The notes beneath the pieces were generated by a model. The model worked only from the letters and a program-made list of their open reading frames with translations. It searched no databases and was not told the DNA's origin. A DNA stretch of 24,773 nucleotides from a virus: positions 1 to 24,773 of IMG/VR virus record IMGVR_UViG_3300025012_000275. The stretch is one strand, 5' to 3'. Numbering within the stretch: the first letter of the stretch is position 1; every line of letters starts with the position of its first letter. Made by a program: the position numbers and the translations under genes. Below are positions 1-24,465 of this stretch, one piece after another.

Positions 1-1
1 A

Positions 2-991
2 ACGGGTGGAGTTTCTCTTAATGCTGAAACGCTGGAGGAAATGTCGCACCCGATTGCCGAAGCCATTCTTAAAGTAAGAAAGTATCGTAAGATCCATGAC
101 ACCTTCATTGTGTCGCAGCTGATGGGCCATCAGACCAGGGGAAGAGTACACCCCAATTTTAATCAAACACGGGTTGTGACGGGCCGGTTGTCCTGTAATA
201 ATCCCAACCTTCAGGCCGTACCGAAAAGGGACCCGGAGATGAAGGCCATCCTTCGTCCTCTTTTTTTGCCGGACGATGGCGCACAGCTTTTAAAATGCGA
301 CTATGACCAATCAGACGTTCGGGGATTTGCCCACTACATTTATTCGGTGACCAACGACAAGAATCACCCGATTCTGCAGGCTTACCAGAAGGACCCGGAT
401 ACTGATTTTCATACTTTCGTATCAGAGTTATTGGGGATTCGCAGGAATCCCGGACCAGGGGGAGGGGCAAACGCCAAACAGATTAACCTAGCCATGATTT
501 TTAATATGGGCATGGGGAAGCTAGCCAAACAAATGGGACTGCCGTATGAGGAGGAAATCGGCAGGAATAAGAAAGTTTACTTGAAGCCGGGGCAGGAAGC
601 TATTGACGTTTTCAACATGTACCACAGCAAAATCCCCGGTGCAGCAGACATGGCACAGATGGCATCGTCTATTGCTGCCAGCCGGGGTTATGTGACATCG
701 ATCTGTGGAAGGCACCTACGATTTCCGGATAAACGGTTCACCTACAAGGCCAGTGGCTATCTTTACCAGAGCTTTACTGCCGATCTGATAAAAAAGGCCA
801 TGGTAGAAACGGCCAAGATAGTTGTGCCACAGCTTTCAGTACATGATGAATTGTTATTCAGCATTTACGACAAGGAAACGGCTTTCGCCATTCAGAAAGT
901 TATGCAGGAAGTATTTGCGAACCTGACGGTAATTCCGATCAGGACAAAGCCAGAAGTTGGTCGTTCATGGGGGGAGGTTAATTTTATATGA
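2..991 (+). CDS. dpoZ: Family A DNA polymerase, C-terminal part (DpoZ-like), 5' truncated
   Basis: Replicative phage DNA polymerase of family A; 329 residues are visible and the reading frame is open to the window edge, so the exonuclease region, if any, is outside. Seen: the TGRLSCNNPNLQAVP palm entry; motif A DYDQSDVR (about 299-322); motif B AKQINLAMIFNMGMG (about 473-517); the YQSFTADLIKKAM helix; motif C VHDEL (839-853). Compared by eye with E. coli Pol I, motif A has Asp where Glu710 sits. In the O helix the Lys is kept, but the Arg four residues before it is Gly, and the Phe762/Tyr766 positions are Leu/Phe. Known: polymerases linked to purZ (DpoZ) accept dZTP. Calling this one DpoZ is inference from its purZ and datZ neighbours. 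Its stop overlaps the next start in ATGA. Confidence 0.9.
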   Translation, partial: TGGVSLNAETLEEMSHPIAEAILKVRKYRKIHDTFIVSQLMGHQTRGRVHPNFNQTRVVTGRLSCNNPNLQAVPKRDPEMKAILRPLFLPDDGAQLLKCDYDQSDVRGFAHYIYSVTNDKNHPILQAYQKDPDTDFHTFVSELLGIRRNPGPGGGANAKQINLAMIFNMGMGKLAKQMGLPYEEEIGRNKKVYLKPGQEAIDVFNMYHSKIPGAADMAQMASSIAASRGYVTSICGRHLRFPDKRFTYKASGYLYQSFTADLIKKAMVETAKIVVPQLSVHDELLFSIYDKETAFAIQKVMQEVFANLTVIPIRTKPEVGRSWGEVNFI

Positions 992-1125
992 CATGTAATA
1001 ATTGCGGGGGGACGATGGTTGGAGATGGAGTAACAGAACCCATCCGATGTGAAAACGTGGAACTTGGCGATTGGGAGTATAGAGAACCCGATTGTAATCC
1101 GATTGATTGCGAGGACGAGAAATGA
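988..1125 (+). CDS. 45-aa Cys-rich (zinc-ribbon-like) protein
   Basis: Small gene coupled at both ends by ATGA overlaps: its ATG shares bases with the polymerase stop and its TGA with the SSB start. A strong purine-rich ribosome binding site (GGGGGGAGG, 969-977) lies about 10 bases upstream. The 45-residue product has a CNNC pair near the N terminus and three further Cys (residues 21, 36, 41), so a zinc-binding knuckle is plausible. It is very acidic at the C terminus. I do not recognise a family. Its place between polymerase and SSB suggests a replication accessory role, which is inference only. Confidence 0.7.
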   Translation: MTCNNCGGTMVGDGVTEPIRCENVELGDWEYREPDCNPIDCEDEK

Positions 1126-1529
1126 TCAACGAGGTAAGATTAATAGGCAATGTGGGGCAGGACCCCAGGATCAACAAAAACAGCAAAGGAACCATGGCCA
1201 CTTTTTCTGTTGCCACTACTGAGAAATGGAAGGATAAGCGGACCGGTGATTGGCAGGAAAAGACGGAGTGGCACAAATGCGTTGCCTTCGGCTATCCGGC
1301 AGACTATGTTGACCAGTACCTGGAAAAGGGTGCTCTGGTTTATGTCGAGGGGTCAATGCAGTATGGTAAGTATGAACGGGACGGCGTTGAGATCCCTACT
1401 GCCGAGGTCAAAGCACAAAAAGTAAAAATTTTAAAGAAACAGGGGGATCGAGACAATCAGGCCAGGGACGGGAACAAGTCTACGGACAACGGGTACATGG
1501 GCAGCACAGGTTCTGACGTACCATTTTAA
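1122..1529 (+). CDS. ssb: Single-stranded DNA-binding protein
   Basis: OB-fold SSB of bacterial type that coats ssDNA during phage replication. Seen: the N terminus MINEVRLIGNVGQDP is characteristic of SSB; the core ATFSVATTE, EWHKCVAFG and YVEGSMQYGKYE match the OB-fold strands; the last residues DVPF form the usual acidic tip that recruits partner proteins. Length is 135 aa, short for the family because the disordered linker is brief. I chose ATG 1122, which overlaps the previous stop (ATGA) and places the canonical MINEV start first. A TTG at 1107 would add five residues not typical of SSB. Confidence 0.95.
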   Translation: MINEVRLIGNVGQDPRINKNSKGTMATFSVATTEKWKDKRTGDWQEKTEWHKCVAFGYPADYVDQYLEKGALVYVEGSMQYGKYERDGVEIPTAEVKAQKVKILKKQGDRDNQARDGNKSTDNGYMGSTGSDVPF

Positions 1530-1538
1530 GGAGACATT

Positions 1539-1871
1539 ATGAAATGTTGCACTCTTGAGTGTTACTCTGTGGCAATGGCCAAATCAACAGACACCGACAG
1601 GGAGTTCTGTATTGAATGCGCCATCAAGATTGCCAAGCACTTTGGCCCGGATAAGATAGTGACTTTGCCGGGAATGAGGTTTCCCTGGGATTACGGGGTA
1701 GACGGCCACTGCCCCCATTGCGGTATAAGTTACAACCGGTACCTGATCAATGTTACTGGTGATTGCCCCGCATGTAAAGCCCCACTGCCGGAGTATAAAC
1801 GGCCAACCTTGGAAATGAAACCGTGGGACGACGACAGAAAAATAGAGTATCGGGAAGGCCCACACGACTAA
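1539..1871 (+). CDS. 110-aa Cys-rich zinc-ribbon protein, function unknown
   Basis: Preceded by AAGGAG at 1527-1532, well spaced from the ATG and overlapping the SSB stop region. The product has a C-terminal half with CPHC and CPAC pairs about 20 residues apart, a typical two-knuckle zinc ribbon, and an N-terminal half with CC, a further Cys and CIEC that could hold a second metal. The C-terminal tail is charged (PWDDDRKIEY). I do not recognise a named family. Zinc ribbons of this kind in phage replication operons may bind nucleic acid or protein, but no function can be assigned from sequence. Confidence 0.8.
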   Translation: MKCCTLECYSVAMAKSTDTDREFCIECAIKIAKHFGPDKIVTLPGMRFPWDYGVDGHCPHCGISYNRYLINVTGDCPACKAPLPEYKRPTLEMKPWDDDRKIEYREGPHD

Positions 1872-1883
1872 TTGGGGGCACCA

Positions 1884-2078
1884 ATGGATAAAGAGTATTT
1901 CTGGGCAAGGTATAGGTCAGGTGATTGGCGGATAGCAGAAAAGAGGTTCTTGAATAGGTGGTTTGTTTGTGGGGTTGGTCACATAAAAAACCACGTTATT
2001 TTTGAAGGGTACCGTAGCCCCAAATCACCGGACGATATTGTTGAAATCGGGGAAAAGGTAATTTGCCCCTATAAATAA
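1884..2078 (+). CDS. 64-aa hypothetical protein
   Basis: Short basic-aromatic protein (MDKEYFWARY start, four Trp/Tyr-rich stretches, one Cys near residue 29 and one near the C terminus). The frame could also open at a TTG at 1872, directly after the upstream stop, but ATG 1884 with GGGGG about 7 bases ahead looks the better start. It is followed by a 29-base spacer that leads into purZ. I do not recognise the family. It lies in the replication operon, in step with its neighbours, which supports that it is real. Confidence 0.6.
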   Translation: MDKEYFWARYRSGDWRIAEKRFLNRWFVCGVGHIKNHVIFEGYRSPKSPDDIVEIGEKVICPYK

Positions 2079-2079
2079 A

Positions 2080-2089
2080 AACCACCACA
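2080..2089 (+). promoter_or_regulatory. AACCACCACA box in the spacer before purZ
   Basis: The 29-base gap before purZ carries AACCACCACA, then six bases, then the ribosome binding site GAGGAG. The same AACCACCA core lies just upstream of the ribosome binding site of the minus-strand tail chaperone G (16994-17003) and of the lipoprotein gene (24466-24473). Role unknown: a leader element, operator or translation enhancer are all possible. Confidence 0.3.
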
Positions 2090-2107
2090 CATTAGAGGAG
2101 ATTTGCG

Positions 2108-3124
2108 ATGAATGTACATGTTGTTTACGGCGGTCAGTTCGGCAGTGAGTCAAAACGGTTGTTTACCGAGTATTACTGCAAGAATTGGCAGCCAGGGGCC
2201 ATCATTACCAATGCTATGCCCAACAGCGGCGGATTTGATAGTGTAGGCGACAAATGGTCCACCCTGCCGATCGGCTACCCAGCTACCTTGATGATTTCCC
2301 CTGGATCAGTGATTAATCTCGATAATCTCAAGAAAGAGATTAAGCAGCTACCGAAAGGGGCCAAGGTAGTCATTCACGAAAATGCAGCAGTGATCGACGA
2401 TAGTCACTTCACAAGTGAAAAGGACTATGTTCGGGTTGGTTCTACCATGACCGGGGGAGCAGCTGCTGCAAAACAGAAAATGGACCGGGACCCAAGTGCA
2501 CGAATCCTGGCCAGGGATTATTTTGAAGACACCCTGAACAATGCCGCCTGGATACGGGAATTGCACAAACACGATAAGGTCCTAGCGGTCTGTGCACAGG
2601 GTCACAGTCTGTCGCTCAATTTCGGTTTCTGGCCATACACTACCAGCAGGAATACCAGTCCTGCTCAAGTCATTGCCGATGCCGGAATTTCTCCGATGGC
2701 AGTTAAACGGATTATTGGCTGTTTTCGGACCTTCCCAATTCGGGTATCCAACCGATTCGATGAAATGGGAGAAATGGTGGGTTGGTCCGGTCCCTGTTAT
2801 TCTGACCAGGAGGAATTGTCCTGGGAAGATATCGGGGTTCCGCAGGAGTTTACCAGTGTCAGCAAAAAGGTTCGTAGAGTATTTACATTTTCACATCAGC
2901 AATTGGTCGAATCAGTCCTGCTCAATGGCACCACCGATGTCTTTCTCGGTTTTATCAATTATTTGCCGGTCTACATGCAGGATGATTTTTTCCGGGCTGT
3001 GCGGGACACCTGCCTAAATAACGGGGCCAATTTATCGTGGATCGGTTGCGGTAAGACCACTGACGACATCTTTTCCCGCATTAGTGATAAAGGATATGGT
3101 TTTGACATTTCCTGGATAAAGTAA
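2108..3124 (+). CDS. purZ: PurZ-like (d)GMP:aspartate ligase (N6-succino-2-amino-deoxyadenylate synthase)
   Basis: Member of the adenylosuccinate synthetase superfamily, 338 aa against about 430 for cellular PurA, as for phage PurZ. Seen: P-loop region GGQFGSESKR (residues 8-17) with Ser13 where PurA has its catalytic Asp13; MPNSGG (37-42); GSTMTGGAAAA (111-121); AQGHSLSLNFGFWPYTTS (163-180), matching the PurA GAQG...HGTYPYVTSS segment; and TSVSKKVRRV (249-258), matching the aspartate loop. Known: PurZ condenses dGMP with aspartate using ATP or dATP, committing to dZTP, and lacks Asp13. Odd: the P-loop GKG is SKR, and the residue at PurA His41 is Gly42. Downstream genes for dGTP/dATP hydrolysis support the PurZ reading. 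A divergent PurA or the PurZ0 clade is the alternative. Ribosome binding site GAGGAG. Confidence 0.85.
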   Translation: MNVHVVYGGQFGSESKRLFTEYYCKNWQPGAIITNAMPNSGGFDSVGDKWSTLPIGYPATLMISPGSVINLDNLKKEIKQLPKGAKVVIHENAAVIDDSHFTSEKDYVRVGSTMTGGAAAAKQKMDRDPSARILARDYFEDTLNNAAWIRELHKHDKVLAVCAQGHSLSLNFGFWPYTTSRNTSPAQVIADAGISPMAVKRIIGCFRTFPIRVSNRFDEMGEMVGWSGPCYSDQEELSWEDIGVPQEFTSVSKKVRRVFTFSHQQLVESVLLNGTTDVFLGFINYLPVYMQDDFFRAVRDTCLNNGANLSWIGCGKTTDDIFSRISDKGYGFDISWIK

Positions 3125-3133
3125 CCTTAACCG

Positions 3134-3151
3134 GGGGCTTCAGCCCCTTTT
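3134..3151 (+). terminator. Hairpin with T-run after purZ
   Basis: GGGGC-TTCA-GCCCC (3134-3147), a 5-bp all-GC stem with a possible extra G-U pair, is followed by TTTT. It sits in the 40-base gap between purZ and the next gene, whose AAGGAGG begins right after. It has the form of a weak intrinsic terminator or attenuator that would lower expression of the downstream hydrolases relative to purZ. Confidence 0.6.
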
Positions 3152-3164
3152 AAAGGAGGAATAT

Positions 3165-3584
3165 ATGGACCAGAAGTTTGGGCCAAAAATTCCATTTACC
3201 CTTGAAATAAATCCGGGGGGGATGGAAGGGTTAAAAAAGGCCCTGGAACGGAAGAACAGGAAATGGGACGACGGCAAGTTAAAATACCACCTGATCCTGC
3301 CGCAGTTCCTGGAGTTGATGGCAGAAATTCTTACACGAGGTGAAATCAATCACCCAAAAGAACCAAACGGTACCCCCTCCTGGCAGTTGGTAGAAAAAGA
3401 GGCGTATGAGGATGCTCTATTTCGCCATTTTCAGGCATACCGCAGGGGGGAGATCATTGACCCGGACCCCAAGATGCCGACCGATCACATGGGCAACATT
3501 GCCGTAAACGCCATGTTCTTGTGGTGGTTTAATCGGCAGCGGGAAGGGTATCTGGGGGAAACTGACACAGTTAACGAGGACTAA
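3165..3584 (+). CDS. dATP/dGTP diphosphohydrolase-family protein (MazZ role)
   Basis: Likely nucleotide pyrophosphohydrolase that turns dGTP into dGMP, the PurZ substrate, and may also remove dATP. Seen: 139 aa with the family pattern DDGKLKYHLILPQFLELMAEIL (residues 35-56), RGEINHP (59-65), EDALFRHFQAYRRGE (82-96), then IDPD and the DHMGNIAVNAMFL segment (108-119), matching the all-alpha family known from phage as the dATP/dGTP diphosphohydrolase N-terminal domain (formerly DUF5664). Acidic and His residues in these helices would bind the metal. Known: the phiVC8 member is described as acting in dZTP synthesis. This differs from the MazG-like MazZ of cyanophage S-2L. Strong ribosome binding site AAGGAGGA just after the purZ hairpin. 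Activity here is inferred from family and context. Confidence 0.75.
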   Translation: MDQKFGPKIPFTLEINPGGMEGLKKALERKNRKWDDGKLKYHLILPQFLELMAEILTRGEINHPKEPNGTPSWQLVEKEAYEDALFRHFQAYRRGEIIDPDPKMPTDHMGNIAVNAMFLWWFNRQREGYLGETDTVNED

Positions 3585-3585
3585 T

Positions 3586-3786
3586 ATGCTACCAAAAATT
3601 CCGTCTTCCCTGGACGAGGCCATGAAGACCACTTATGCGGGACCATGGCACATACGATATAACCCAAATAAGTGCGCTTGTCCTGTTTATGATTGCGGGG
3701 CAGGGCGGTATCTTCAGTGCCAAAACCCCAACGGGTACGGGGTTGATGGGATTTTTTGTAAAGGCCACAAGGAGCCAAAATCATGA
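3586..3786 (+). CDS. 66-aa Cys-rich hypothetical protein
   Basis: Begins one base after the previous stop (TAATATG) and ends with an ATGA overlap into datZ, so it is translationally coupled on both sides. The product has five Cys (KCACPVYDC, LQC, IFCKGH) with a His near the last, a pattern compatible with one zinc site. No family recognised. Its position between two nucleotide hydrolases suggests a role near the dZ pathway, but nothing in the sequence shows one. An overlapping frame at 3635-3871 was judged a shadow. Confidence 0.65.
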   Translation: MLPKIPSSLDEAMKTTYAGPWHIRYNPNKCACPVYDCGAGRYLQCQNPNGYGVDGIFCKGHKEPKS

Positions 3787-4268
3787 CAGAAATAAGAGAT
3801 CATTTTCCAGCACCGTTTGGAAAGCACCCGGAATTAAGGGCAGGAATCGTTCCCCGGTGGGCAATTATTAAAACATCAAAAACTCAATCCGTTGCAGAGC
3901 ATTCCTACAACGTGGCAATGATAACCCGGATCATTTTGACTGGCTTTATTTTGACCCCGCTGGATGACAATGATATTATCCTGATGGCCCTGGACCATGA
4001 TTGGAAATCTGAGGTCTACACCGGAGATATCCCTAATCCTGCCAAAGTGCGTAACCCCAATGCAGAGGTCCTGTCGATCGAAGAAGCAATCATAAAGCTG
4101 GCAGACTGTATCGAGGGTTACGCTTTTATTAACAGGAATTGCAGCGACTCCACATCGGTAAAAATGTGGGTGATGGGCGATCTAGAAGTACAGATTAATG
4201 CCCTATGTAATTTTCTGGAAATAAACGGCAGGGACATCTGGCCTACAATCTCAGGGATGGTATTATAA
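3783..4268 (+). CDS. datZ: DatZ-like HD-domain dATP phosphohydrolase
   Basis: HD-domain phosphohydrolase of the YfbR/DatZ type, expected to strip dATP (or dAMP) so that Z replaces A in phage DNA. Seen, in order: PRW (residues 24-26), matching the Arg-Trp pair that holds deoxyadenosine nucleotides in YfbR; SVAEHSYNVA with metal His40; DHD with His72-Asp73; Glu77; TGDIPNP with Asp82; KLADCIEG with Asp108. All expected HD ligands are present. Length is 161 aa. Known: S-2L DatZ is a dATP triphosphohydrolase and co-occurs with purZ. Start ATG overlaps the preceding stop (ATGA), and the stop directly precedes the next ATG. Whether it removes triphosphate or acts on the monophosphate cannot be told from sequence. 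Confidence 0.85.
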   Translation: MTEIRDHFPAPFGKHPELRAGIVPRWAIIKTSKTQSVAEHSYNVAMITRIILTGFILTPLDDNDIILMALDHDWKSEVYTGDIPNPAKVRNPNAEVLSIEEAIIKLADCIEGYAFINRNCSDSTSVKMWVMGDLEVQINALCNFLEINGRDIWPTISGMVL

Positions 4269-4850
4269 ATGAAAAAGATTTTATTTGTTGATACGGAAAC
4301 AACCGGCCTAGACCCTAAGATTAACGGCATCCATCAGATCGCTGCTCAGATCGTTGTTGATGGCAAAATGGAAATGGAGTTTGATTTTAAATTCCGTCCA
4401 CTCGACACCGAAAAGATCGAACCGGAGGCCCTGGCAGTGTCTGGTTTAACGGTAGAAGAAGTCATGGCCCGACCTTTATCGAGCAAGGACGTTTATAAAA
4501 AGATCGACTCGATTCTCTGCCAGTTTGTAAACAAGTATGATAAGCACGATAAAATGGTGATATCGGGCTATAATTGCAATTTCGACGCTCAATTTCTCAG
4601 CGAATGGTACAAGAAGCACAATAACAAGTATTTCTTTGGCCTGTGCCATGGTGGAGCATACTTGGACGGCTTGACTATGGCCCTGCTACTGGAAATAAAA
4701 AAGGGAGAAAAGGTATTTTTCCCGGATCGGAAATTGGGTACGGTGGCAAAACACCTGGGTGTTCAATTGGATGATGCCCACGATGCCTTGGCCGACATTA
4801 TCGCTACCAGGGACGTAATACGGTCCTTATGGAGGGAATTGGGGCTATGA
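4269..4850 (+). CDS. DEDDh 3'-5' exonuclease (DnaQ-like)
   Basis: Stand-alone 3'-5' exonuclease of the DnaQ/RNase T superfamily, 193 aa, starting directly after the datZ stop. Seen: ExoI VDTETTGLDP with Asp8 and Glu10; ExoII GYNCNFDAQFL with Asp106; ExoIII HDALADIIAT with His171 and Asp176. All five DEDDh residues are intact, so it should be catalytically active and metal-dependent. It may proofread for the polymerase or degrade host DNA. Placement between datZ and a VRR-NUC nuclease, in one operon with the polymerase, favours replication or recombination. Whether the truncated polymerase has its own exonuclease domain is not visible here. Confidence 0.92.
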   Translation: MKKILFVDTETTGLDPKINGIHQIAAQIVVDGKMEMEFDFKFRPLDTEKIEPEALAVSGLTVEEVMARPLSSKDVYKKIDSILCQFVNKYDKHDKMVISGYNCNFDAQFLSEWYKKHNNKYFFGLCHGGAYLDGLTMALLLEIKKGEKVFFPDRKLGTVAKHLGVQLDDAHDALADIIATRDVIRSLWRELGL

Positions 4851-5254
4851 GCGAAAAGACACTGTGGAAATGGTTAAACAAAAAGATGGCCCATGACCCA
4901 AATTGGAGAAGTGCCAGATTGGAAAAATGTTTAGAAAAAGGAATCCCGGATGCGGTGGTGCGGTTTACTGATTCAAATTCACGGACGATGCTTATTACTT
5001 TTATGGAATTAAAGGATTGGTCAGAATCCCCAAAGCACCCTTTATCAGTAGAACAGAAAAATTTCATTCAAACATTCGGCGGGGCAGTGTTGATTAGAGC
5101 ACAAGATAAATTGTGCATGTTAGGCAAGAATCACAATCTTGTGCCACTGATGTCTGCTGATGTTGGGTACGCACTTAGTCACGGGATAGTTACCCCCATT
5201 TCAGATTTTACCCCGGCATGGCTAAATGCGGCCCTTACACATTGTGAACTGTGA
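4847..5254 (+). CDS. VRR-NUC-type PD-(D/E)xK nuclease
   Basis: Predicted small endonuclease of the VRR-NUC branch of the PD-(D/E)xK fold, 135 aa. Seen: acidic residues Glu26 and Glu30 in the N-terminal helix; KGIPDAVVRF with Pro34-Asp35; FMELK with Glu54 and Lys56; LSVEQKNF with Gln70; then GGAVLIRA, the order typical of VRR-NUC. The family cuts branched or flapped DNA, so processing of replication or recombination intermediates is likely. I chose ATG 4847 (ATGA overlap with the exonuclease stop, GGAGGG 10 bases ahead) over the ATG at 4829. It is the last plus-strand gene; its 3' end overlaps the end of the opposing late operon by 20 bp. Confidence 0.85.
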   Translation: MSEKTLWKWLNKKMAHDPNWRSARLEKCLEKGIPDAVVRFTDSNSRTMLITFMELKDWSESPKHPLSVEQKNFIQTFGGAVLIRAQDKLCMLGKNHNLVPLMSADVGYALSHGIVTPISDFTPAWLNAALTHCEL

Positions 5255-5417
5255 TATCTGGTTTACTGGTTTTGGTGACTATTACCCCTGACACCATGAC
5301 CACATAATCTCCCCGCGAAAAAGGTTTATCGGTAAAGGATATGGACTCCCGGCCTACCATATCCTTTATCTTTACCTTTCCTTCGCCAAGTATTTCTGTT
5401 ATCTCCACTATTTTCAT
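5235..5417 (-). CDS. 60-aa hypothetical protein, last gene of late operon
   Basis: Small beta-rich protein (KVKIKDMVG, GDYVVMVSGVIV) with no Cys and no signal or membrane segment, suggestive of a small barrel, but no family is recognised. Its ATG overlaps the upstream stop in ATGA, which supports translation in step with the late operon. Its stop end overlaps the end of the convergent nuclease gene by 20 bp. As the final gene after the tail-tip block it is probably a tail-tip accessory or virion protein (inference). Confidence 0.65.
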   Translation of the reverse strand: MKIVEITEILGEGKVKIKDMVGRESISFTDKPFSRGDYVVMVSGVIVTKTSKPDITVHNV

Positions 5418-5719
5418 GCCAAGGGTACCTCCACTTCGATTGTGGTGACGGTGGACAGGGCTTTCTTGGCCACTGTTACCGAAACATCGTAAGACATCAC
5501 CATGCCATAAAAAGTGGCAGGACCATAAACGATCTTGGCAATGTGTCCCGGCTGTATATAGTCACTATTTAGCATTTCCATAGTTAGTATAATCACATCC
5601 TGGCCATTTTCGTTGATTTCTTGCCGCCCAATCTCAAGCAAGGACGTTGGTAATTTTAAAAATGTTATAATATCGGGTCCCGGTTTATCGGCAGGGGCGC
5701 GTTGTGCAATAATAGCCAT
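5414..5719 (-). CDS. 101-aa tail-tip-associated hypothetical protein
   Basis: Unrecognised 101-aa protein in the distal part of the late operon. It is mostly beta by appearance: ITFLKLP, DVIILTMEML, HIAKIVYGP, FYGMVMSYDVSVTV, STVTTIEVEVPLA. No Cys, no hydrophobic export signal. It starts a few bases after the preceding stop and overlaps the next gene by ATGA. Position directly after the hub-like protein gene suggests a small tail-tip component; this is inference from context. Confidence 0.7.
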   Translation of the reverse strand: MAIIAQRAPADKPGPDIITFLKLPTSLLEIGRQEINENGQDVIILTMEMLNSDYIQPGHIAKIVYGPATFYGMVMSYDVSVTVAKKALSTVTTIEVEVPLA

Positions 5720-5722
5720 GTT

Positions 5723-6256
5723 TTACACCAGTGAAATATAAAAGACCACCCCAATTGGGTAGCTTTCGTCTTCTTCTAGTTCCATTTTAGGGACCGATAG
5801 CCGATAGATCTTTACCGCGTATTCGGTGTCAATCGAAGCCATGAATGGGGCCTTATCTGCGTCACCAGTAAGAGAAACTCTACCAATCGGATCGGCAGCG
5901 GGAGTTACTGACCCTCCCCTGCCCAGGTATTCGATGGTGTATTTACTTGGCACCACGTCAAATTCATATTTATCGAGATCTTCGGCCTCTCTCCCGGCAA
6001 ACAATGTGGTGTCAAGTTTGCTGCGGCTCTCGGACCCGATGTATTGCACAGATCCATCTGTCGACACAACTTCGTCAATAATCACATTGGTTGAGTGATT
6101 GACCGCAATAAATACTTGATCGCCAGGGCCAAAGGATGATTTCAGGTCCCCTACTTCATCAACATTTAAAATATCGTCGATATCTATGTTGAATAGATAG
6201 TCGCCCTTGATCGATCCCGCACTATACTTAACAAGAATGGTTCCTTCAAGTCCCAT
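5723..6256 (-). CDS. 177-aa tail-tip-associated hypothetical protein
   Basis: Unrecognised 177-aa acidic protein. The N-terminal part (GTILVKYSAG, DYLFNIDIDDIL, DQVFIAVNHS) looks like a small beta domain, followed by a longer beta-rich region ending in GVVFYISLV. It starts one base after the hub-like gene stop and is followed by two smaller genes with short spacing, so it belongs to the tail-tip cluster. Probably a virion component; no function can be read from the sequence. Confidence 0.75.
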   Translation of the reverse strand: MGLEGTILVKYSAGSIKGDYLFNIDIDDILNVDEVGDLKSSFGPGDQVFIAVNHSTNVIIDEVVSTDGSVQYIGSESRSKLDTTLFAGREAEDLDKYEFDVVPSKYTIEYLGRGGSVTPAADPIGRVSLTGDADKAPFMASIDTEYAVKIYRLSVPKMELEEDESYPIGVVFYISLV

Positions 6257-6257
6257 A

Positions 6258-8486
6258 TTAACTCACCAGGATGAATTGAACGGTTTCCGGGTCAATATCC
6301 TTAGCCACCCATAACCAGTGTTTTGTTTTATATTTTATGGTAACGATACTGTTGCCGCTGGCCACGGAAACCGACCCATCTTCATTGAAAGACACGGCCC
6401 CCAAGTTTACCCTGGTACTGTAGTCGTAAGAAAGAATGCCGTAGCAAGGTTCAGCCAGATTTCCGATGCCATTCTTGATTTCAATCTCTTCCGTGAGTTC
6501 CTCTTCCACGATCCCGGCAGGAATAATGATGGCGTTGGTTAGCTCAGAAGTAGATAAAGTGACCAGTTTATCTGCCCAGGGAACGATGCTGGCTGTTATG
6601 TTGTAAGTTTGGTCGTTTATTTCCTTAGCAGACAGCCGGTAGCCCCCGCTGTTGGCCTTGTTAGATATAAAATATTTGTTGTAACCGCTGCGTTTTTCCG
6701 TGGTAGAATTAAACCCGGACGTGGCACTAAGTACGTTTATTTCAATATCCGGCACCACAGTGTTATAAAGATTAGTATTAACTGGCCGCATGGGGAGAGC
6801 TTTAATTACCCCAGACGGGTATGTCTGCACTATGCCCCCAAACTCGTTCACAATAGCTTTGATCCCGGACAAGGGAGAATTGCCAGAAATCTGTACGTCG
6901 TTTGAGGTTACAGATTCATTGGCAGGAATTTCCCAAGTGATATTTTTACCCTTGATGGCGGCAATAGAATTAACCACTTCACTGCAGAGGCCACTTACCA
7001 GATTATTATCTTTAATTTCTGCCGCATGGGGAAAATCCAGGATTACTGAGCCAGATCTCCCGGCCACGGCATATCTCCAGGTTCCCGCTACTTCATTTTT
7101 GGATTTTTCAACCACAATCAAGTGGTATGTGTCGTCTTTAATTTGTATCTCAATCGGGTCGTATACCCCGATATTTTCCCATGCTGTTTCATCGTTTACA
7201 GTTATCTCGCAAGACAAACAGTATTCCAACAGAGAGTGTTGTACTTTGAAACCCGAACACTGAATTTCTGCCCCGGATATTTTTACCAAGAACGATGAAG
7301 ATTCACCCGATCGATCACTCAGAACAGAATATTGCTGACGCAGGGCGGCAGTAAGACTATTTAAATCCTTGATAGCATACCCCTGGGTAAGGGATGCCAG
7401 GATACTTTCCCCCAGGATAGGGTATTTTTGAACCAGAGAAGAAGTTAAGAAGTCAAATACCTTATATGATTGTTTTAAATAAGACGAAACTAGGGGACTG
7501 TCGCCATATTTCTGTAATAAGGCTTTCTTTAACTCCGCCGAAGATCCATAATATTGAGTTAAATATCGCAGCACTACCGGCACATCGCCGTAATGCTGGG
7601 CAAGGACGGCGAGTAGTTGCATGCCGTAGACCTGGATCAGGACGGCGAGTTGGCGGTTGGTGATGTGGTAGGTCTGGTCGAGGATGGAGCGGATCAGATC
7701 GCCGATAAGGCTGTAGGGCTGGGTTAGGTGGGCGAATAACTCGGATGTGTCAGGGATGGTCGGCGCGGCGGATTTGTATGGATGGTCGGCAGCGAGGCTG
7801 CCGACCATGCCCCATTTCCACGCCAGATATCCCTCAATCAGCTGCCTCGTATCTGTACCAACAACACCTGCAACAACAACAATCTCAGCAATTGATCCGT
7901 TGAGCCAGTCAGCGAAAGCTCCAAAGTTTACCCCCAGTGCCATACCAGAGGTCATGCTCTGAAGTCCGGCCGCACCATTAACAATTGAGCCGTTTACCCC
8001 TACACTGGATGAATTACCGTTAAATATGCCGAGAAATATCTGAAATGATGTTGATGCGCTGGCAGTATGGGCCAACCAAGCATCGGCAAATATCGATGGT
8101 TTGTTCACCTGGTTGCCGCGCAATGCCAGCAAATTACGATAGGTGTCATTCTCAACCCATCCATCATATACATACTGTCGTGATCCGGTCGTCCCTGTAT
8201 TGGTATTGGTTTTTGCGACAGTGATTATTGAAACAGGTTGTGGCAATGATATTGTGGGGTTATAAAGATAATCGGCAGTTCCGTCGAACGTAATGATATC
8301 CAATCCATTCAGGCCTCCCGACGTTAATGCTGGCTGATTTGCTGCCGTACCCTGTGAGAAATTTGCAGTAGCACCAGATTTGTTCGCCCACTGGCTGACA
8401 GTAGAACCATTGAGCGTGATTGTACTGGCGTCGCTGGCATCCAGCCAGAGGGCAGTGGTGATTTGGGCAGGGGTCCACAGGGCCAT
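6258..8486 (-). CDS. Chimeric tail hub protein: LamG-like domain, LxQxY repeats, hub domain
   Basis: Long (742 aa) tail-tip protein made of three parts. Residues 1-250: a concanavalin/LamG-like jelly roll (ALWLDASDASTI, SQWANKSG, IITFDGTADYL, IAEIVVV, EGYLAWKWG, AADHPYK), a domain common in phage tail proteins and probably glycan-binding. Residues about 253-391: ten imperfect repeats, mostly 12-16 residues, of the form LxQxY. Residues about 398-742: a hub-like region (ISGAEIQCSGFKV, LSCEITVND, AWENIGVYDPIEIQI, YHLIVVEKS) resembling gp27/late-control-type baseplate hubs. Base composition shifts from GC-rich to AT-richer within the repeats (about 7600), a sign that the N-terminal module was acquired. 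Start ATG overlaps the previous stop (TAATG). Confidence 0.8.
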   Translation of the reverse strand: MALWTPAQITTALWLDASDASTITLNGSTVSQWANKSGATANFSQGTAANQPALTSGGLNGLDIITFDGTADYLYNPTISLPQPVSIITVAKTNTNTGTTGSRQYVYDGWVENDTYRNLLALRGNQVNKPSIFADAWLAHTASASTSFQIFLGIFNGNSSSVGVNGSIVNGAAGLQSMTSGMALGVNFGAFADWLNGSIAEIVVVAGVVGTDTRQLIEGYLAWKWGMVGSLAADHPYKSAAPTIPDTSELFAHLTQPYSLIGDLIRSILDQTYHITNRQLAVLIQVYGMQLLAVLAQHYGDVPVVLRYLTQYYGSSAELKKALLQKYGDSPLVSSYLKQSYKVFDFLTSSLVQKYPILGESILASLTQGYAIKDLNSLTAALRQQYSVLSDRSGESSSFLVKISGAEIQCSGFKVQHSLLEYCLSCEITVNDETAWENIGVYDPIEIQIKDDTYHLIVVEKSKNEVAGTWRYAVAGRSGSVILDFPHAAEIKDNNLVSGLCSEVVNSIAAIKGKNITWEIPANESVTSNDVQISGNSPLSGIKAIVNEFGGIVQTYPSGVIKALPMRPVNTNLYNTVVPDIEINVLSATSGFNSTTEKRSGYNKYFISNKANSGGYRLSAKEINDQTYNITASIVPWADKLVTLSTSELTNAIIIPAGIVEEELTEEIEIKNGIGNLAEPCYGILSYDYSTRVNLGAVSFNEDGSVSVASGNSIVTIKYKTKHWLWVAKDIDPETVQFILVS
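7314..7730 (-). repeat. Ten-copy LxQxY coding repeat array
   Basis: Codes for residues about 253-391 of the hub chimera. Successive units begin LTQPY, LDQTY, LIQVY, LAQHY, LTQYY, LLQKY, LKQSY, LVQKY, LTQGY and LRQQY, spaced mostly 12-16 residues. The first three or four units lie in GC-rich DNA and the rest in AT-richer DNA. The repeats are degenerate at DNA level, although AGGACGGCGAGT occurs twice near 7603 and 7639. Confidence 0.75.
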
Positions 8487-8854
8487 TAAAGATCCCCTCG
8501 CACGATATACTCAGTATGTCCGCACATTCCATCACGCCACGGCTGGTCGGTGGCCGGTCGATTTTGGCACTGGATAGCATGCGTAGCAGTAGTTGTCATG
8601 TCGCCTCGATCGAGGGGTACAATGACCGCCAGTTTGCCACATACTGAGCATTTGATTATGTTGTCTGGTCGCCGCTGTTGTGTCGGGGAAATTCTCGGTT
8701 CTTCTGTGAACCGACCACTACTAATAAGCGCAACATCAATCTTTGCGATGACATCCAACAATGACGCGCCGGAATCTAGCTCAGACTGGAGTAATGATTT
8801 GGTGTTTTGCAAATCTCTTACTGAAAACACGTTAGAATTCATCAGCATACCCAT
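8486..8854 (-). CDS. 122-aa zinc-finger protein in tail-tip cluster
   Basis: The N-terminal part looks helical (SVRDLQNTKSLLQSELDSG) and the C-terminal part holds a likely zinc site: CSVCGK, then His about 22 residues on, IQCQN and GMCGH. No family recognised. It sits between a Cys-rich tail-tip protein and the hub chimera, with a TAATG overlap to the latter. Start could be 8854 (used here, GGAAAA ahead) or ATG 8842, which overlaps the upstream stop. It may be a tail assembly factor rather than a virion part; this is speculation. Confidence 0.65.
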   Translation of the reverse strand: MGMLMNSNVFSVRDLQNTKSLLQSELDSGASLLDVIAKIDVALISSGRFTEEPRISPTQQRRPDNIIKCSVCGKLAVIVPLDRGDMTTTATHAIQCQNRPATDQPWRDGMCGHTEYIVRGDL

Positions 8855-10632
8855 TTTTCCAATCTGGTATAATTAATTATAAACCATGCGCCCCAAAAAC
8901 TATTTTCGGAATTGATGGTGGAATGGAAACCAACTTTTCGGGTGTAATAAACATCAAAACCACCTACCGAGCACTCTCCACATTCCATGCACAGCGGCGG
9001 GTAATCAAAACATTGTCCGGCTATCTGATCCTGTGGCGGCGGTGCTGAACGTATTTCCTCACATCGAGCTATCGCCGCCGCCCGCGTTGAAAAAATACCA
9101 TAATATCCATCACCCAAGCCTGATTGCTGGGTGATTCTGTACTGGCCGGAAATTCCGATATCAGTATGATTCGCTACCGAGCCCCATGCGCCGGTACCAA
9201 CAAAAACATCTGGACAACCAAAACTACCGATCCCTCCAGTTTTTATAAAAACTTGTTGCCATACGCCATTTGTTGAGCGAACACCGCCGTTGACAACACT
9301 ACAACCATCAGTGACCTCGATCGGGGCAAAGCCGCAGGCATCCCCTGTAAATACTCTAATGTATGGAACATCTGTAATAGCATCCCGAAGACTTTGGCCA
9401 TCAAACGAAAATCCGTTACCTCTTACTGACCAATAATATGGAGTAACACCACCAATTACGGCTACAGTACCAGAGGTATTGTCGGCCAAAACCTCAACTG
9501 AATTCTCGCGATCCCAGACAATTGGCGTAGCATCCTCGCAGCAGTTCTGCGGACGAATTATTGTTTCTTCATATCGAGTTCCACAACCTGCCGGAGTAAT
9601 GGGGCCAAGGCCAATAAACTCAATAGGCCCCGCCCAATCAGCAGTTAATCTTGCCCTGGTTACTTCATCGAGATCTTTTCCGCCTTCAATACGCGAAGTT
9701 CGTACCTTGCAGCCATCATGCTGGCCATCCACACAGCATTTTTCGCGATAAAACCAAGGCTCCGTAACGGGGGAACCGGCAGGGGCCAGTGGAAAATAAT
9801 CAATACAGCCATATTCCTGTACCGGATCTGGTGGTGGCTCTGGTTCTGGGTCGTCGTCTGGTATTCCGGTTTTACTTTGTTCCCACCCGCATACTTCGGC
9901 CAGGGTAGTTTCGTCTTCGTCAACTGGCGGAGTGGTATCACACGAATAGACTTGGTAGTGGTAAAAGGCCAGGGCCACGGCATCCTGTGTCTTTCCCAGA
10001 TCAGAACCAACGTAATTGGGGACACCAGGAATCTCAACAGTAACCAAATCTTCAACTGTATGAAATTCGGCACGAATGGTACCGGTACATTTTCCGTCCC
10101 AAAATAAAGTGTTGCCCTTAACCCGAATAATGGGGGGGTTAATTGCCCCGGTCTTATTAATTACTGACCCCATCCAGGAACAAGATAAACTAGAACGAAC
10201 TGGTAATGTTAAGGTTACGGACGAGGAATCCTTCACATCAACAGTGATCACAATACTTTTTTCGTTAACCACTGTCTCTAAGATCTTGCCAGCGCTTAAA
10301 CGCAAAACATAGGGTAAATCAGGGTGACTGCGTACTATTCGCAAATCAACTTGGTAAGTTCCGGTCAATCTGCGTTCACAGGCAGACAGATCAGCGTCAG
10401 TTTTTTCCAGTACTTCCCCCATGTCGGCAGGGGGTTCTTCCTTTGGCTCTTTCCCGGTTACGATGGGATCTTTGCAAGGGGTCAAGTCAAACAATTCATC
10501 GATGATTTCTGCCACCTCTCCTGCTGTCAAAGGCTCATCTTTTACTTGTTCGATAATCAGCCAATAGCCGTCTTCCGGGGCTAGGTTTTCTGATGCGGTG
10601 CAGGTGACTATTATATTCTGGGCAATGGTCAT
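8842..10632 (-). CDS. 596-aa Cys-rich tail-tip protein (paralog 3)
   Basis: Third and largest of three tandem related tail-tip proteins. The N-terminal half shares their layout: a YWLIIEQ start, SHPDLPYVL (near residue 100), a short beta stretch, LSCSWMGS, INPPIIRVKGNTL and GTIRAEFHTV. A proline-rich acidic linker (PEPEPPPDP, about residues 262-270) leads to a C-terminal half with many Cys (KCCVDG, QNCCED, CMECGEC) and a segment (YYWSVRGNGF) that looks like an Ig-type or cadherin-like beta domain. No export signal. Likely exposed on the tail tip and involved in host contact (inference from place and domain style). Start ATG overlaps the upstream stop in ATGA. Confidence 0.7.
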   Translation of the reverse strand: MTIAQNIIVTCTASENLAPEDGYWLIIEQVKDEPLTAGEVAEIIDELFDLTPCKDPIVTGKEPKEEPPADMGEVLEKTDADLSACERRLTGTYQVDLRIVRSHPDLPYVLRLSAGKILETVVNEKSIVITVDVKDSSSVTLTLPVRSSLSCSWMGSVINKTGAINPPIIRVKGNTLFWDGKCTGTIRAEFHTVEDLVTVEIPGVPNYVGSDLGKTQDAVALAFYHYQVYSCDTTPPVDEDETTLAEVCGWEQSKTGIPDDDPEPEPPPDPVQEYGCIDYFPLAPAGSPVTEPWFYREKCCVDGQHDGCKVRTSRIEGGKDLDEVTRARLTADWAGPIEFIGLGPITPAGCGTRYEETIIRPQNCCEDATPIVWDRENSVEVLADNTSGTVAVIGGVTPYYWSVRGNGFSFDGQSLRDAITDVPYIRVFTGDACGFAPIEVTDGCSVVNGGVRSTNGVWQQVFIKTGGIGSFGCPDVFVGTGAWGSVANHTDIGISGQYRITQQSGLGDGYYGIFSTRAAAIARCEEIRSAPPPQDQIAGQCFDYPPLCMECGECSVGGFDVYYTRKVGFHSTINSENSFWGAWFIINYTRLEKWVC

Positions 10633-11615
10633 ACGATTCCAAATCCCCCCATCGGGGCAGCCACTACTTTTTGCCCGCTGATGTCAACACAATATTTCAT
10701 GGGGTCAGCCCCGTCCCAAATGGCTATAATAGTATTTTCTTTGCAAGTAGAGTAATAAACTTTTCTCAGTGATATGTCTTTACACAGCAGAACAATGGTG
10801 CCATACATATCTGGGCACATGGCCAAGGCATCTTTTACACATTGGGGGATGTCCAATCGTAGTTGATCAGTGTCTGTGCTGCCATCAGGTTCCAGCCAGG
10901 ATGCAGTAACGGTGTTTTCCAGATTCTCGATCTTATATCCGTTTAACCGAGTAGTCTTTTTTGGCACATAGACCATGATGCCGTCTGACTTGTATTCTTC
11001 TTTTTCCTGTTCCTGCAGGGCCTTTGATTCTTCTTCGGTTAATTCCTCTATAGTTAACGGTTTACTGAGGATCATTTCAGAAACGTAGTACCCGCCCACT
11101 GCCGTACCCTTTACTCGCAATCCACCAAACACTGTCGAAGAAAATTTGAGATAGTTACCAAAAATAGTGATTTCTGGAGTAGGGATCTCGTCCCCGTACC
11201 TATTATAGCAGGGAGTTTCCCACGCCACTGTGGTATCTTCCATATAATAGGTTAAATCTATCTTATCTGCGTTATTGACGAAAAGTGAAAATTCTTTGTC
11301 TTTGCGGATTCGGGTTTTCGGGCCAATGGTGCCGATAGCGGGAGACAGGCCGTAGACAAGATCCGGGCTACTTGGCCACGCGTAAAAGCCCAACCACACA
11401 TAAATATCACTTCCCGCAAAACCAATCGGGCATCCTGGCGGACGCAGGGTTTGTGCCGATTTGCCGGTAACGGCGGCAGTCCACATCTTATAAATGTCTC
11501 GTGCACTGGCATAGTAAGAAAGACGTGATGGCACAACCTGTTCCAGTCGCACCCAAACGTCGTTTACAGGGGGGTCCTGGTTGGATATCGTGACTGTGAT
11601 TGACTCGTTCGCCAT
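10629..11615 (-). CDS. 328-aa tail-tip protein (paralog 2)
   Basis: Second of three tandem paralogs. Seen: the beta start ITVTISNQDPPVNDVWVRLEQ, SSPDLVYGL (near residue 100), KDKEFSLFV, IDLTYYMEDTTVAW, PTPEITIFGNYLKFSS and FGGLRVKGTAVGGYYV, which line up with the equivalent parts of its neighbours. A Glu/Lys-rich stretch (ESKALQEQEKEEYK) precedes a distinct C-terminal domain with several Cys. I chose ATG 11615, which overlaps the upstream stop as TGATG with GAGG eight bases before it, over the TTG one codon earlier. Probable virion component of the tail tip; no catalytic motif is seen. Confidence 0.7.
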   Translation of the reverse strand: MANESITVTISNQDPPVNDVWVRLEQVVPSRLSYYASARDIYKMWTAAVTGKSAQTLRPPGCPIGFAGSDIYVWLGFYAWPSSPDLVYGLSPAIGTIGPKTRIRKDKEFSLFVNNADKIDLTYYMEDTTVAWETPCYNRYGDEIPTPEITIFGNYLKFSSTVFGGLRVKGTAVGGYYVSEMILSKPLTIEELTEEESKALQEQEKEEYKSDGIMVYVPKKTTRLNGYKIENLENTVTASWLEPDGSTDTDQLRLDIPQCVKDALAMCPDMYGTIVLLCKDISLRKVYYSTCKENTIIAIWDGADPMKYCVDISGQKVVAAPMGGFGIV

Positions 11616-20447: not shown

Positions 20448-21730
20448 ATCGCGTACCCCCGCACTTTCAGCACTTCGGCATCACTCGCGGATTTTCCCCA
20501 GAATTGTGTTTGCTGTACCCCGAATGGTATCACACTGTTCAGCCCAACACGTTCGTGCGTCAAGGGATTTTGCGAGCCGTCATAGGCAACCGCTGTTCCC
20601 CATGTGATCGCGGTGAAGACATTCTTGGCGTAACCAATCCGCTGAGTTGTGCCGGCAGCGTTGGTCTGTTTCGCGATCAGGAGTTCGTCGGTCCGTACCC
20701 ATCCGCCCGTAACCGTGACCTCTGCAACCGTAGTACCATCGCTTGATTTCAGTTTGCCTCCTGCATCAGCGAAGATCAGCCCCGAGACTACATCACTGGC
20801 ACTGAGGATATTCGCTGGGGCCGTGACCTGTGCGCTGGATACCCCCATTTCTACCAATGCAGCAGCAGTGAACGCACCCCCCGACAGTGCAGCGGTCATA
20901 GCTGCATTCAGCGGTATCGCCAGCCCGTTGCCGCCACTGGTGGCTGCTGTGGAGGTTACTGAGGTGGTTGCGCCTGCGCCAGATGCTGCGTAGGGCATTT
21001 GGTAGGGAGAGGCTACGAGTTGTGGTTCCCATATTGTGCATGTACCTGTTGCCGGCTCACCACAACCAGCCCCAAAACGGAAAACCCACACACCCCCAGT
21101 TGCACCAATATTAGCGGCTATAGTTAATATATGCTCTCCAGCGGATGGAATGGTTGTATCCATCGCCAAGGCCCCGTCAACGTAAAACGTCATTGTGCCT
21201 GATGGCATTATCGAAGGGATGAATATATGTTTCAATCGCAACCCACCATCAGTTATCGCCCGCACCCGCAGGGAATAGCTAGTATTGGCCAAGACCGTAA
21301 GATTTTGTGATATAATATATCTCGCCGCAACAGTAGTGGTTGTTATGCTGCCATTCGTATTTACCGTCATGGTTCCAGGTGTTCCTATGGTGGTAACTGG
21401 CCAATTTGTCGGACCTGTTCCTGGCGTCCCACTCACAGCCCCCTCAAGCTTGGAGTTCTGCAACAGGTTGCTATACGCAGGCTGCACCATCACCCCCCGC
21501 AGCGGATGATTGACAGGCCACGGGACCATGTTGCCTGAAGCGTCGGGCTGGAGGCCCGCTGCTGAGGTTTGGATTCGGGGGCCGACGGGGCAGGTGGATG
21601 GGGTCTTGGCGTTCCAGAGGGATAAAAGTTCCGGAAATTCAGGAATCGCGGGAAGTAAAATAGGGTTATTCCGCTTTTTATCCCGGAGATCCCACAACAG
21701 CCATGCCATGTATTTATAGGATTTTTTCAT
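20444..21730 (-). CDS. Tail fibre protein with LamG-like C terminus
   Basis: 428-aa putative receptor-binding or side-fibre protein. Seen: an N-terminal part with a basic start (KKSYKYMAWLLWDLRDKKR) and a Pro-rich stretch (NPILLPAIPEFPELL), a GVMVQPAYSNLLQNSKLEG segment typical of phage fibre proteins, a beta jelly-roll-like middle (YSLRVRAITDGGLRLKHIF, TMTFYVDG), and a C-terminal LamG/concanavalin-like region (NANIL-type strands, GGWVRTDELLIAKQ, QTQFWGKSASDAEVLKVRGY). The GC-rich, Ala/Thr/Gly-rich middle differs from neighbours, suggesting exchange. Lies between endolysin and neck genes. Confidence 0.75.
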   Translation of the reverse strand: MKKSYKYMAWLLWDLRDKKRNNPILLPAIPEFPELLSLWNAKTPSTCPVGPRIQTSAAGLQPDASGNMVPWPVNHPLRGVMVQPAYSNLLQNSKLEGAVSGTPGTGPTNWPVTTIGTPGTMTVNTNGSITTTTVAARYIISQNLTVLANTSYSLRVRAITDGGLRLKHIFIPSIMPSGTMTFYVDGALAMDTTIPSAGEHILTIAANIGATGGVWVFRFGAGCGEPATGTCTIWEPQLVASPYQMPYAASGAGATTSVTSTAATSGGNGLAIPLNAAMTAALSGGAFTAAALVEMGVSSAQVTAPANILSASDVVSGLIFADAGGKLKSSDGTTVAEVTVTGGWVRTDELLIAKQTNAAGTTQRIGYAKNVFTAITWGTAVAYDGSQNPLTHERVGLNSVIPFGVQQTQFWGKSASDAEVLKVRGYAI

Positions 21731-22299
21731 ACTCTCCTAAACCAGCCCCGGAACCCCTCGTGCAAAGGGTTATTTTTATAATGAATATACTGCTCACCAT
21801 TCATACAATTTAAAAGGATGGATTCGTTTAATTCGTCACTTCCCGGCCTCGACACGATACATCGACCAAGAGTCTTGATAGTGATGCTTCCCAACTGGCC
21901 GTCAACTTTAATGTCGGGGTAAGTTTTGCCGTGCTGGTTTAACATGTTAAGGGCAATCTGTAAAAATTCCACGGCTCTGGTAACGCCCATATTTACTGAC
22001 GTATCAAACAATTCCTTGGCTACCGGCAGAGAAACAAGAGCAACTTCGTCACCTTGGAATCGATCCCAAAAGTTTATTCTGTAAAATTTCTTGACGTGCG
22101 GTAAAAGTTCTTTCTGAACGGCCAGCGGGACTTTGCCATCTTTTTTATATCTGTCAATTATCGGCCACCCCATCCAGGATTTCCAATATACTCTGGAAAT
22201 ACCCGCGTAAGTTTCTTTACCGGGGTCGCCCTTCACGTTTGAAAGGTTTCTACCTTCCATGCGTTCAGTTTCTTCAAAGGATATTTCAAAAGGGTCCAT
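21727..22299 (-). CDS. GH108 endolysin (muramidase) with peptidoglycan-binding domain
   Basis: Phage lysozyme cutting the glycan strand of peptidoglycan at the end of infection. Seen: the N-terminal GH108 motif FEETERMEGRN with catalytic Glu15, then DPGKETYAGIS (residues 25-35), where most members have DPGGxTxxGI, and a middle with FDTSVNMG that matches the family helix; a C-terminal domain (PDIKVDGQLGSITIKTLGR) fitting PG_binding_3. Length 190 aa is normal. No signal peptide, so a holin is needed. It overlaps the membrane protein gene upstream as TAATG, the usual holin-endolysin pairing. Confidence 0.9.
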   Translation of the reverse strand: MDPFEISFEETERMEGRNLSNVKGDPGKETYAGISRVYWKSWMGWPIIDRYKKDGKVPLAVQKELLPHVKKFYRINFWDRFQGDEVALVSLPVAKELFDTSVNMGVTRAVEFLQIALNMLNQHGKTYPDIKVDGQLGSITIKTLGRCIVSRPGSDELNESILLNCMNGEQYIHYKNNPLHEGFRGWFRRV

Positions 22300-22736: not shown

Positions 22737-22763
22737 TGTTCATCACTCCTATTATAAAATATA

Positions 22764-24455: not shown

Positions 24456-24465
24456 TTTGTCCCTC

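Follow-up and report, generated by a model that had tools for sequence, protein, structure and literature searches.

Does a virus that carries the genes associated with 2-aminoadenine (Z) in DNA still make Z when its ligase for the committed step has lost the site for ATP? The question is raised by the 24,773-base virus record IMGVR_UViG_3300025012_000275, the whole of which we call the window and the virus itself virus A. A sequence-only reading had described a complete Z cassette there, made up of a family A polymerase, a single-strand DNA-binding protein (SSB), a PurZ-like ligase, a dATP/dGTP diphosphohydrolase-family protein and a DatZ-like HD hydrolase. All five genes are indeed in the window, on the plus strand and in one block, and all have significant profile matches (Table 1). 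The claim of a complete working cassette is nevertheless unsecured, because the enzyme of the committed step no longer has its ATP site, a loss that is itself conserved; this anomaly, absent from the earlier reading, is the main one at this locus. The same block, with an identical gene order around PurZ, is found in two further viruses. Virus B (JROS01000092.1), a 71% identical relative, is a contig of a toluene-degrading Desulfobulbaceae assembly and was found by a scan with the PurZ alignment, and virus C (IMGVR_UViG_3300027851_000044) came from a later scan. The block is best explained as a descendant of a Z-genome cassette in this three-virus lineage, with a rebuilt PurZ homologue.

A standard PurZ works in two stages: a phosphate passes from ATP to the O6 of dGMP, and aspartate then takes its place. 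When the window ligase is compared with 15 PurZ and PurA proteins, Ser13 is kept, so that the earlier statement that Ser stands in place of PurA Asp13 holds in the alignment, whereas the NAGHT motif has become NSGG-F and the P-loop GSTGKG has become GSESKR. We mapped the substrate contacts of S-2L PurZ, as given in PMC8342488, onto an alignment of other PurZ. At 15 of 15 positions of the dGMP pocket the ligase has residues that are found in other PurZ. Five of the ten ATP contacts, by contrast, are changed (in S-2L numbers, G25 to Ser, H52 to Gly, N305 to Gly, P336 to Lys, and T53 deleted); four others (S23, G51, F306 and G335) are unchanged, and Q308 is replaced by the Asn that most PurZ have there. 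The triphosphate and phosphoryl-transfer site (G25, G51, H52, T53) reads S, G, G, deleted, and Gly27 of the P-loop is Arg in all three viruses. The ATP-site changes and Ser13 are common to A, B and C. The committed step that the sequence-only reading had taken as covered is left to a ligase that keeps its dGMP site and most of its aspartate site but is without the catalytic His, the Thr after it and the glycines of the P-loop that serve ATP.

The lost residues are close to invariant elsewhere. In the other aligned PurZ rows, Ser13, H52 and G27 are found in 95/95, T53 and G25 in 93/95 each, N305 in 91/95 and P336 in 84/95. Copies of A and B (L001, L002, L003, L010, L025, L026) and the remote ligases L008 and L009 are excluded from these contact counts, and E. 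coli PurA was shown apart; near-duplicates were removed for contact mapping (94 to 75 rows) and kept in the 95-row count. The PurZ loci sampled are the best 80 of 575, and one search pattern demanded K-G in the P-loop, so that His-less relatives with other P-loops may be under-sampled. K16, Q164, R127, R212 and R256 are also kept in the A ligase. Its aspartate loop has changed from TTVT to TSVS, at a place where Thr274 is kept in 75/75 other rows, and Arg280 is kept. Fifty columns are at least 95% conserved in 76 rows, and eight of them (G25, G27, H52, T53, E187, T274, T276 and P129) are broken in A, B and C alike, the change at P129 being mild.

PurA His41, which we take to be the catalytic residue, has its counterpart in H52. 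A motif scan found this His in PurZ0 (4/4), in cellular PurA (6/6), in the ligase of BpsS-140 and in the remote ligase L008; the L009 ligase was skipped by the scan and reads NASH by eye. An alignment shift that hides the catalytic His was considered and rejected, since the virus A ligase has no His at all in residues 5-89 (B and C have His 25 and His 73, both absent from A), which makes the loss independent of the alignment. H166, beside Q164, was dropped as a compensating His, as His occurs there in 3/95 canonical rows too. Two residues in the rebuilt region, R17 and E21, are found at their columns in none of 76 other rows; the E. coli PurA residue at the E21 column is Asp. One may speculate that R17 and K316, both newly basic, and an R17/E21 pair belong to a site for a smaller phosphate donor, but they fit a closed cleft just as well.

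The altered ligase is under selection. Between B and C, its dN is 0.079 and its dS 0.728, a ratio of 0.109. Four canonical PurZ pairs were compared, of which two are saturated and the others have ratios of 0.077 (phiVC8-K300, with a dS of 2.3 that is near saturation) and 0.184; several A-B and A-C dS values are saturated and so give no ratio. Residues 1-66 of the ligase, in which most of the altered motifs lie, are identical in all three viruses at 55/66 positions, compared with 174/251 in residues 67-317 (permutation p 0.015); this extra conservation means that the altered active site is itself conserved. Three distinct viruses with the same changes, together with purifying selection, speak against both decay and sequencing error, and the idea of a decaying pseudogene was rejected on these grounds. 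For the companion genes, the B-C ratios are 0.091 (polymerase), 0.188 (HD protein), 0.15 (DUF5664 protein) and 0.022 (helicase).

In ancestry and predicted fold the ligase goes with PurZ. In a 48-row maximum-likelihood tree, A, B and C form a deep branch with a stem of 1.71 that falls with PurZ (96/84) and outside the clades of six cellular PurA (100/100) and of four PurZ0 (99/99); its PurA rows are cellular, archaeal PurA not included, and the base of an earlier 82-row tree did not resolve. The separation from cellular PurA for which the sequence-only reading had proposed a tree is therefore there. The AlphaFold2 model of the A ligase, built from a 51-row alignment (predicted local distance difference test, pLDDT, 90.9; predicted template modelling score, pTM, 0.90), has S-2L PurZ (7odx) as its best fold match (Z 40.7, root-mean-square deviation 2.1, 325 residues aligned), followed by phiVC8 PurZ (Z 39.5-39.9), P. 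horikoshii PurA (35.6) and, further down, PurZ0 (33.1). Judged from sequence, the ligase goes with PurZ and stands outside both PurA and PurZ0. The profile check turned out differently. With 209.4 bits for A, 213.4 for B and 219.8 for C, all three ligases fail the 300-bit cut-off of the PurZ model NF038379 of NCBIfam, which S-2L (349.8), phiVC8 (397.2), SH-Ab (421.5) and the PurZ0 of Cicada (370.3) exceed. The model is also failed by OspOH (241.3) and BpsS-140 (211.5), which both keep the His, and by L008 (146.8) and L009 (114.1). As it fails both the model cut-off and the catalytic-site test, we do not file the ligase as a PurZ enzyme, and it is probably not a standard ATP-dependent PurZ.

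Some remote ligases are worth recording in their own right. The Ser13 ligase of Bacillus phage vB_BpsS-140 (L021) branches at the base of PurZ and scores higher as a PRK04293 adenylosuccinate synthetase than as PurZ, and no DatZ or polymerase I annotation lies within 5 kb of it. Two larger phage contigs encode Ser13 PurZ-like ligases (L008:7761-9002 and L009:7788-9206) next to P-loop-kinase-like genes; the L009 neighbour matches phrog_139, deoxynucleoside monophosphate kinase (E 9.8e-8), and the L008 neighbour has no PHROG match.

The companions of the ligase look more like those of a Z phage. The family A polymerase that the sequence-only reading had assigned to Z-DNA can be given a firmer identity. 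The whole protein of A scores 544.8 bits on NF038380, the NCBI exception model for DpoZ-1, and passes its cut-off of 500, as does that of C (511.1); B stays below (460.4), with a masked stretch inside its gene (L107:2383-4143) that reads X and leaves G548 unreadable there. The A protein has the L455, F459, G548 and insertion 2 known from the phiVC8-like clade, along with the exonuclease residues (numbering from PMC8599892), and among 2,882 phage records, 28 of the best 30 listed matches are listed PurZ carriers. By model score and signature residues, the A polymerase is of the DpoZ-1 type.

The HD protein is harder to name. All its metal residues are present in the alignment, as had been stated before. 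With the metal sites and R19, W20, I22, Q29, A32, G74, P79, K81 and K116, the protein agrees with S-2L DatZ at 15 of the 16 positions checked in A, B and C (positions from PMC8065100); the 16th, E93, lies inside a missing segment and is variable in other aligned DatZ too. Several of the matched residues also occur in YfbR, and neither PHROG name nor fold nor tree could tell DatZ from YfbR. On phrog_7076 (dATP triphosphohydrolase), E. coli YfbR scores 109 bits and the A protein 76; the predicted model (pLDDT just 71.9) ties between YfbR (Z 12.0) and DatZ (Z 11.8); and the nearest protein by path in the tree is phiVC8 DatZ, in a weakly resolved grouping. Among phages, its closest matches are HD proteins encoded by PurZ carriers (40 of 73 records listed). 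Of the earlier name, then, the DatZ residues stand, and the separation from YfbR does not.

For the protein named as a dATP/dGTP diphosphohydrolase, the family was right insofar as it matches PF18909, but it is a lone dGTP_diPhyd_N domain, and a Pfam scan of it found no DUF550/MazZ domain. A 109-residue open reading frame (ORF) upstream of the polymerase looks MazG-like by eye, has no Pfam match and occurs in virus A only. The DUF5664 protein has 128 phage matches; the 25 listed, which include Limnohabitans DC31 and Escherichia forsur, share no record with the 60 listed PurZ records, a comparison of the two lists only. The lone DUF5664 protein of phage Wayne cuts dATP, dGTP and dUTP, according to PMC12884076, which makes a dGTP role possible for the one in A. 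Two Cys-rich proteins of 110 and 66 residues are kept in all three viruses (64-66% and 47-49% identity to A, respectively), and a search of 50,697 phage records at E 0.1 matched neither.

That this phage makes Z-DNA is plausible. Tentatively, and with somewhat less confidence, we favour a ligase that still serves Z synthesis by an altered chemistry. The cassette would still yield dZTP, but without the usual ATP-dependent activation of dGMP O6 by the ligase; another phosphoryl donor would serve instead, or the step would be helped by a partner, for which the two Cys-rich proteins conserved in the block of this lineage would be the first candidates. The DUF5664 protein would supply dGMP, host enzymes would convert the succino-product to dZTP, the HD protein would clear dATP, and DpoZ would favour dZTP. 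We prefer this reading because selection maintains both the polymerase and the HD protein, which would bring a benefit only when dZTP is produced; with no dZTP, a polymerase that prefers Z and an enzyme that removes dATP should be costly to the phage. The preference rests on the HD protein being DatZ, for which it is a candidate. The narrower version, in which an ATP-free ligase of the PurA superfamily uses another donor to activate dGMP O6 and no partner is invoked, is unlikely in that specific form.

Several points weigh against an altered chemistry. The His and the P-loop of PurA are essential, which makes loss of activity the simpler chemical reading, and no sign of an alternative donor or partner appeared in this analysis. 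The HD protein of A, B and C lacks the DatZ segment between K81 and K116, has one residue added after the HD pair and is, by its B-C ratio, the least constrained of nine genes (63% identical, 0.188); it could be a YfbR-like nucleotidase instead of DatZ, which weakens the argument from the companions. Insertion 1 of the polymerase (phiVC8 349-353) is absent from A, B and C. Finally, remote members of the ligase family also break conserved columns, namely PurZ0 L019 (15/58), BpsS-140 L021 (10/55), L078 (8/52) and L087 (8/56), with H52 and G27 intact in all of them.

The strongest rival, which we consider rather unlikely, is a pseudoenzyme that binds dGMP and perhaps aspartate, makes nothing, and acts as a sensor, scaffold or inhibitor. 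In one variant it would inhibit, for example, host PurA via the common dimer interface, with little or no Z made and DpoZ copying ordinary DNA. Loss of the ATP and phosphoryl site alone, with the dGMP pocket intact at 15/15 positions, the predicted fold kept and purifying selection in force, is the usual mark of a retained pseudoenzyme, and R17 and E21 might pair and shut the ATP cleft. What it does not account for is why selection should preserve the DpoZ signature and an HD protein that has the DatZ residues.

That virus A is an ordinary Z phage, with a ligase that works as an ATP-dependent PurZ despite its changes, is improbable. The conserved Ser13, K16, Q164, R127, R212 and R256, the position with PurZ in the tree, the DpoZ and DatZ-like companions and a gene order much like that of SH-Ab 15497 would all fit, but the His and Gly27, each at 95/95 in other rows, are replaced, and five of the ten S-2L ATP contacts are changed together. 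The PurZ profile points the same way (209-220 bits, cut-off 300), although the His-keeping OspOH (241) and BpsS-140 (211) fail too. It is more improbable still that dGMP is the substrate of a different activation or nucleophile, giving a 6-substituted purine other than Z that a DpoZ-like polymerase takes up. This would agree with the TSVS aspartate loop, at a position that is Thr274 in 75/75 other rows, and with a polymerase, an HD protein and a ligase that are all somewhat off their canonical form; the loop changes are conservative, however, Arg280 is kept, and no extra base-modification gene was found among ten further virus A proteins scanned against Pfam, a scan that left many small ORFs outside. 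An assembly or sequencing error in the window, suggested at most by its near identity throughout with a second record that may come from the same sample, is in practice ruled out by viruses B and C, one of them (JROS01000092.1) from an independent enrichment, which have the same changes amid synonymous differences.

PurZ has been treated as the one constant of Z genomes, and the ligase described here is a PurZ homologue that selection maintains with its ATP site taken apart. If it does work by an altered chemistry, the PurZ step can run otherwise than assumed, which is relevant to making Z-DNA and other unnatural nucleic acids. If it does not, carriage of a Ser13 PurZ gene does not suffice to identify a Z phage. 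Whether this lineage makes Z, and by what route, is a testable question.

Table 1. Features of the block in virus A; positions are those of the window unless another record is named.
Feature	Position	Strand	Evidence or remark
DpoZ-type family A DNA polymerase, C-terminal 329 residues, cut by window edge	2..991	+	PF00476 E 3.5e-46; NF038380 347 bits on fragment
Whole polymerase gene, 589 residues	L003:5115-6884 (G001 record)		
SSB	1107..1529	+	PF00436 E 8.8e-27; ATG at 1122
110-residue Cys-rich protein	1539..1871	+	zinc-ribbon-like by eye; Pfam matches under cut-off
68-residue ORF, family-less	1872..2078	+	gap here just 31 / 32 bases in B / C
PurZ homologue, 338 residues	2108..3124	+	PF00709 E 5.2e-17; phrog_1211 E 2.7e-50; NCBIfam PurZ 209 bits, E 6.7e-62
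Ser13 codon (= PurA Asp13, S-2L Ser23)	2144..2146	+	alignment
S15-K16-R17, replaces P-loop G-K-G	2150..2158	+	alignment
G41-G42-F43: catalytic His (S-2L H52, PurA H41) to Gly42; next Thr (S-2L T53) deleted	2228..2236	+	
V161-C162, replaces E187-G188 (S-2L numbers)	2588..2593	+	
S250-V251-S252: aspartate-loop T-V-T to S-V-S	2855..2863	+	
Gly281, replaces adenine-contact Asn305	2948..2950	+	
Lys316, replaces adenine-stacking Pro336	3053..3055	+	
DUF5664 / dGTP_diPhyd_N protein, possible dGTP (dATP) pyrophosphohydrolase	3165..3584	+	PF18909 E 5.8e-22
66-residue Cys-rich protein	3586..3786	+	
DatZ/YfbR-like HD hydrolase	3783..4268	+	YfbR-like E 1e-11
DnaQ-like 3'-5' exonuclease	4269..4850	+	PF00929 E 1.6e-15; phrog_192 E 3.1e-36
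Weak nuclease/helicase-like ORF	4829..5254	+	phrog_2165 (DNA helicase) E 4.8e-5; VRR-NUC match under cut-off

The window is one of two records of virus A. The other, IMGVR_UViG_3300024999_000173 (G001, 45,432 bases), matches it with zero mismatches in three pieces (window 1-11121 to L003, 11113-21155 to L115 and 21030-24743 to L114), and the two differ only in the first 15 bases of G001 and in the last 30 bases of the window. The latter fall in a perfect 30-base tandem repeat of 4.8 copies (window 24630-24773), inside which the contig ends and differs from G001. As the window spans both ends of G001, the map of virus A appears to be circular at about 45 kb; no exact end repeat was found in the G001 record. 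Scans of the window for tRNA genes and Rfam families gave zero matches, and a promoter and terminator scan gave no more sites than shuffled sequence.

Elsewhere in the virus A genome, a TOTE-type archaeo-eukaryotic primase (L114:16756-18288, PF22548 E 1.1e-16) is encoded besides DpoZ. In virus B, two extra ORFs flank the polymerase (L107:1877-2386 and L107:4315-4968) and have the look of HNH homing endonucleases, by eye only. Ochrobactrum phage vB_OspP_OH (L022) has PurZ and DatZ-like genes and a polymerase without L455, F459, G548 and insertion 2.

The lineage is small in the data searched. A two-row alignment found only A, B and C among viral contigs and only B among genome contigs, and a DpoZ-based scan added no further lineage to A, C and one fragment, which ends at its polymerase. 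No second PurA/PurZ gene was found, with one PF00709 reading frame each in G001 and G002 and one place in C for query A3. A search by major capsid protein (MCP) for sister phages with canonical PurZ gave 24 loci, of which 19 were scanned (the others being L130, L131 (virus A itself), L143, L144 and L147); PurZ was found in one of the 19, C itself, and DpoZ in two, C and the polymerase-ended fragment. Many of these loci are short fragments, so the absence of PurZ there says little. The host assignment of virus B comes from binning of a heavy stable-isotope-probing (SIP) fraction and is weak (PMC4299903); the PurA of the Desulfobulbaceae assembly that holds its contig is canonical.

Among known systems, purZ is described as the central activity of Z genomes, with a single origin, in a 2026 survey (PMC12884076), which reports that Ser is invariant (100%) among 147 phage PurZ/PurZ0 sequences and does not mention the His in the sections consulted. 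A search of titles and abstract openings in the open-access literature found no description of a PurZ without an ATP site or of PurZ as a pseudoenzyme. PurZ0 (7vf6), from actinophages with DutZ/DmtZ, is like the A ligase in Ser13 and in belonging to the deoxynucleotide branch of the PurA superfamily, but it forms a separate clade (99/99), keeps NAGH (4/4) and matches the predicted fold less closely (Z 33.1); no dUTPase-family (DutZ-like) match was found among 20 virus A proteins scanned against Pfam, which do not cover every ORF. The PurZ of S-2L (7odx) and of phiVC8 (6tnh, 6fm1, 6fko) have the fold, Ser13 and the dGMP pocket in common with the A ligase, which differs from that of S-2L by G25S, G27R, H52G, deletion of T53, N305G and P336K. 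The A HD protein has the metal residues of E. coli YfbR and S-2L DatZ (fold Z 12.0 and 11.8) and differs from both in the missing K81-K116 segment and the residue added after the HD pair. The closest parallel to the block as a whole is found in SH-Ab 15497 (Acinetobacter), PMBT28 and Klebsiella K21lambda1, which, like A, have the order helicase, polymerase, SSB, PurZ, DUF5664, DatZ/HD and small gene, and whose group also provides the best matches of the A polymerase (38-40% identity). In contrast to this group, A has additional Cys-rich genes and a DnaQ gene, its DUF5664 is a lone domain where those of SH-Ab and PMBT28 are fused to DUF550, and its ligase is without both the GSTGKG and the NAGH of their PurZ.

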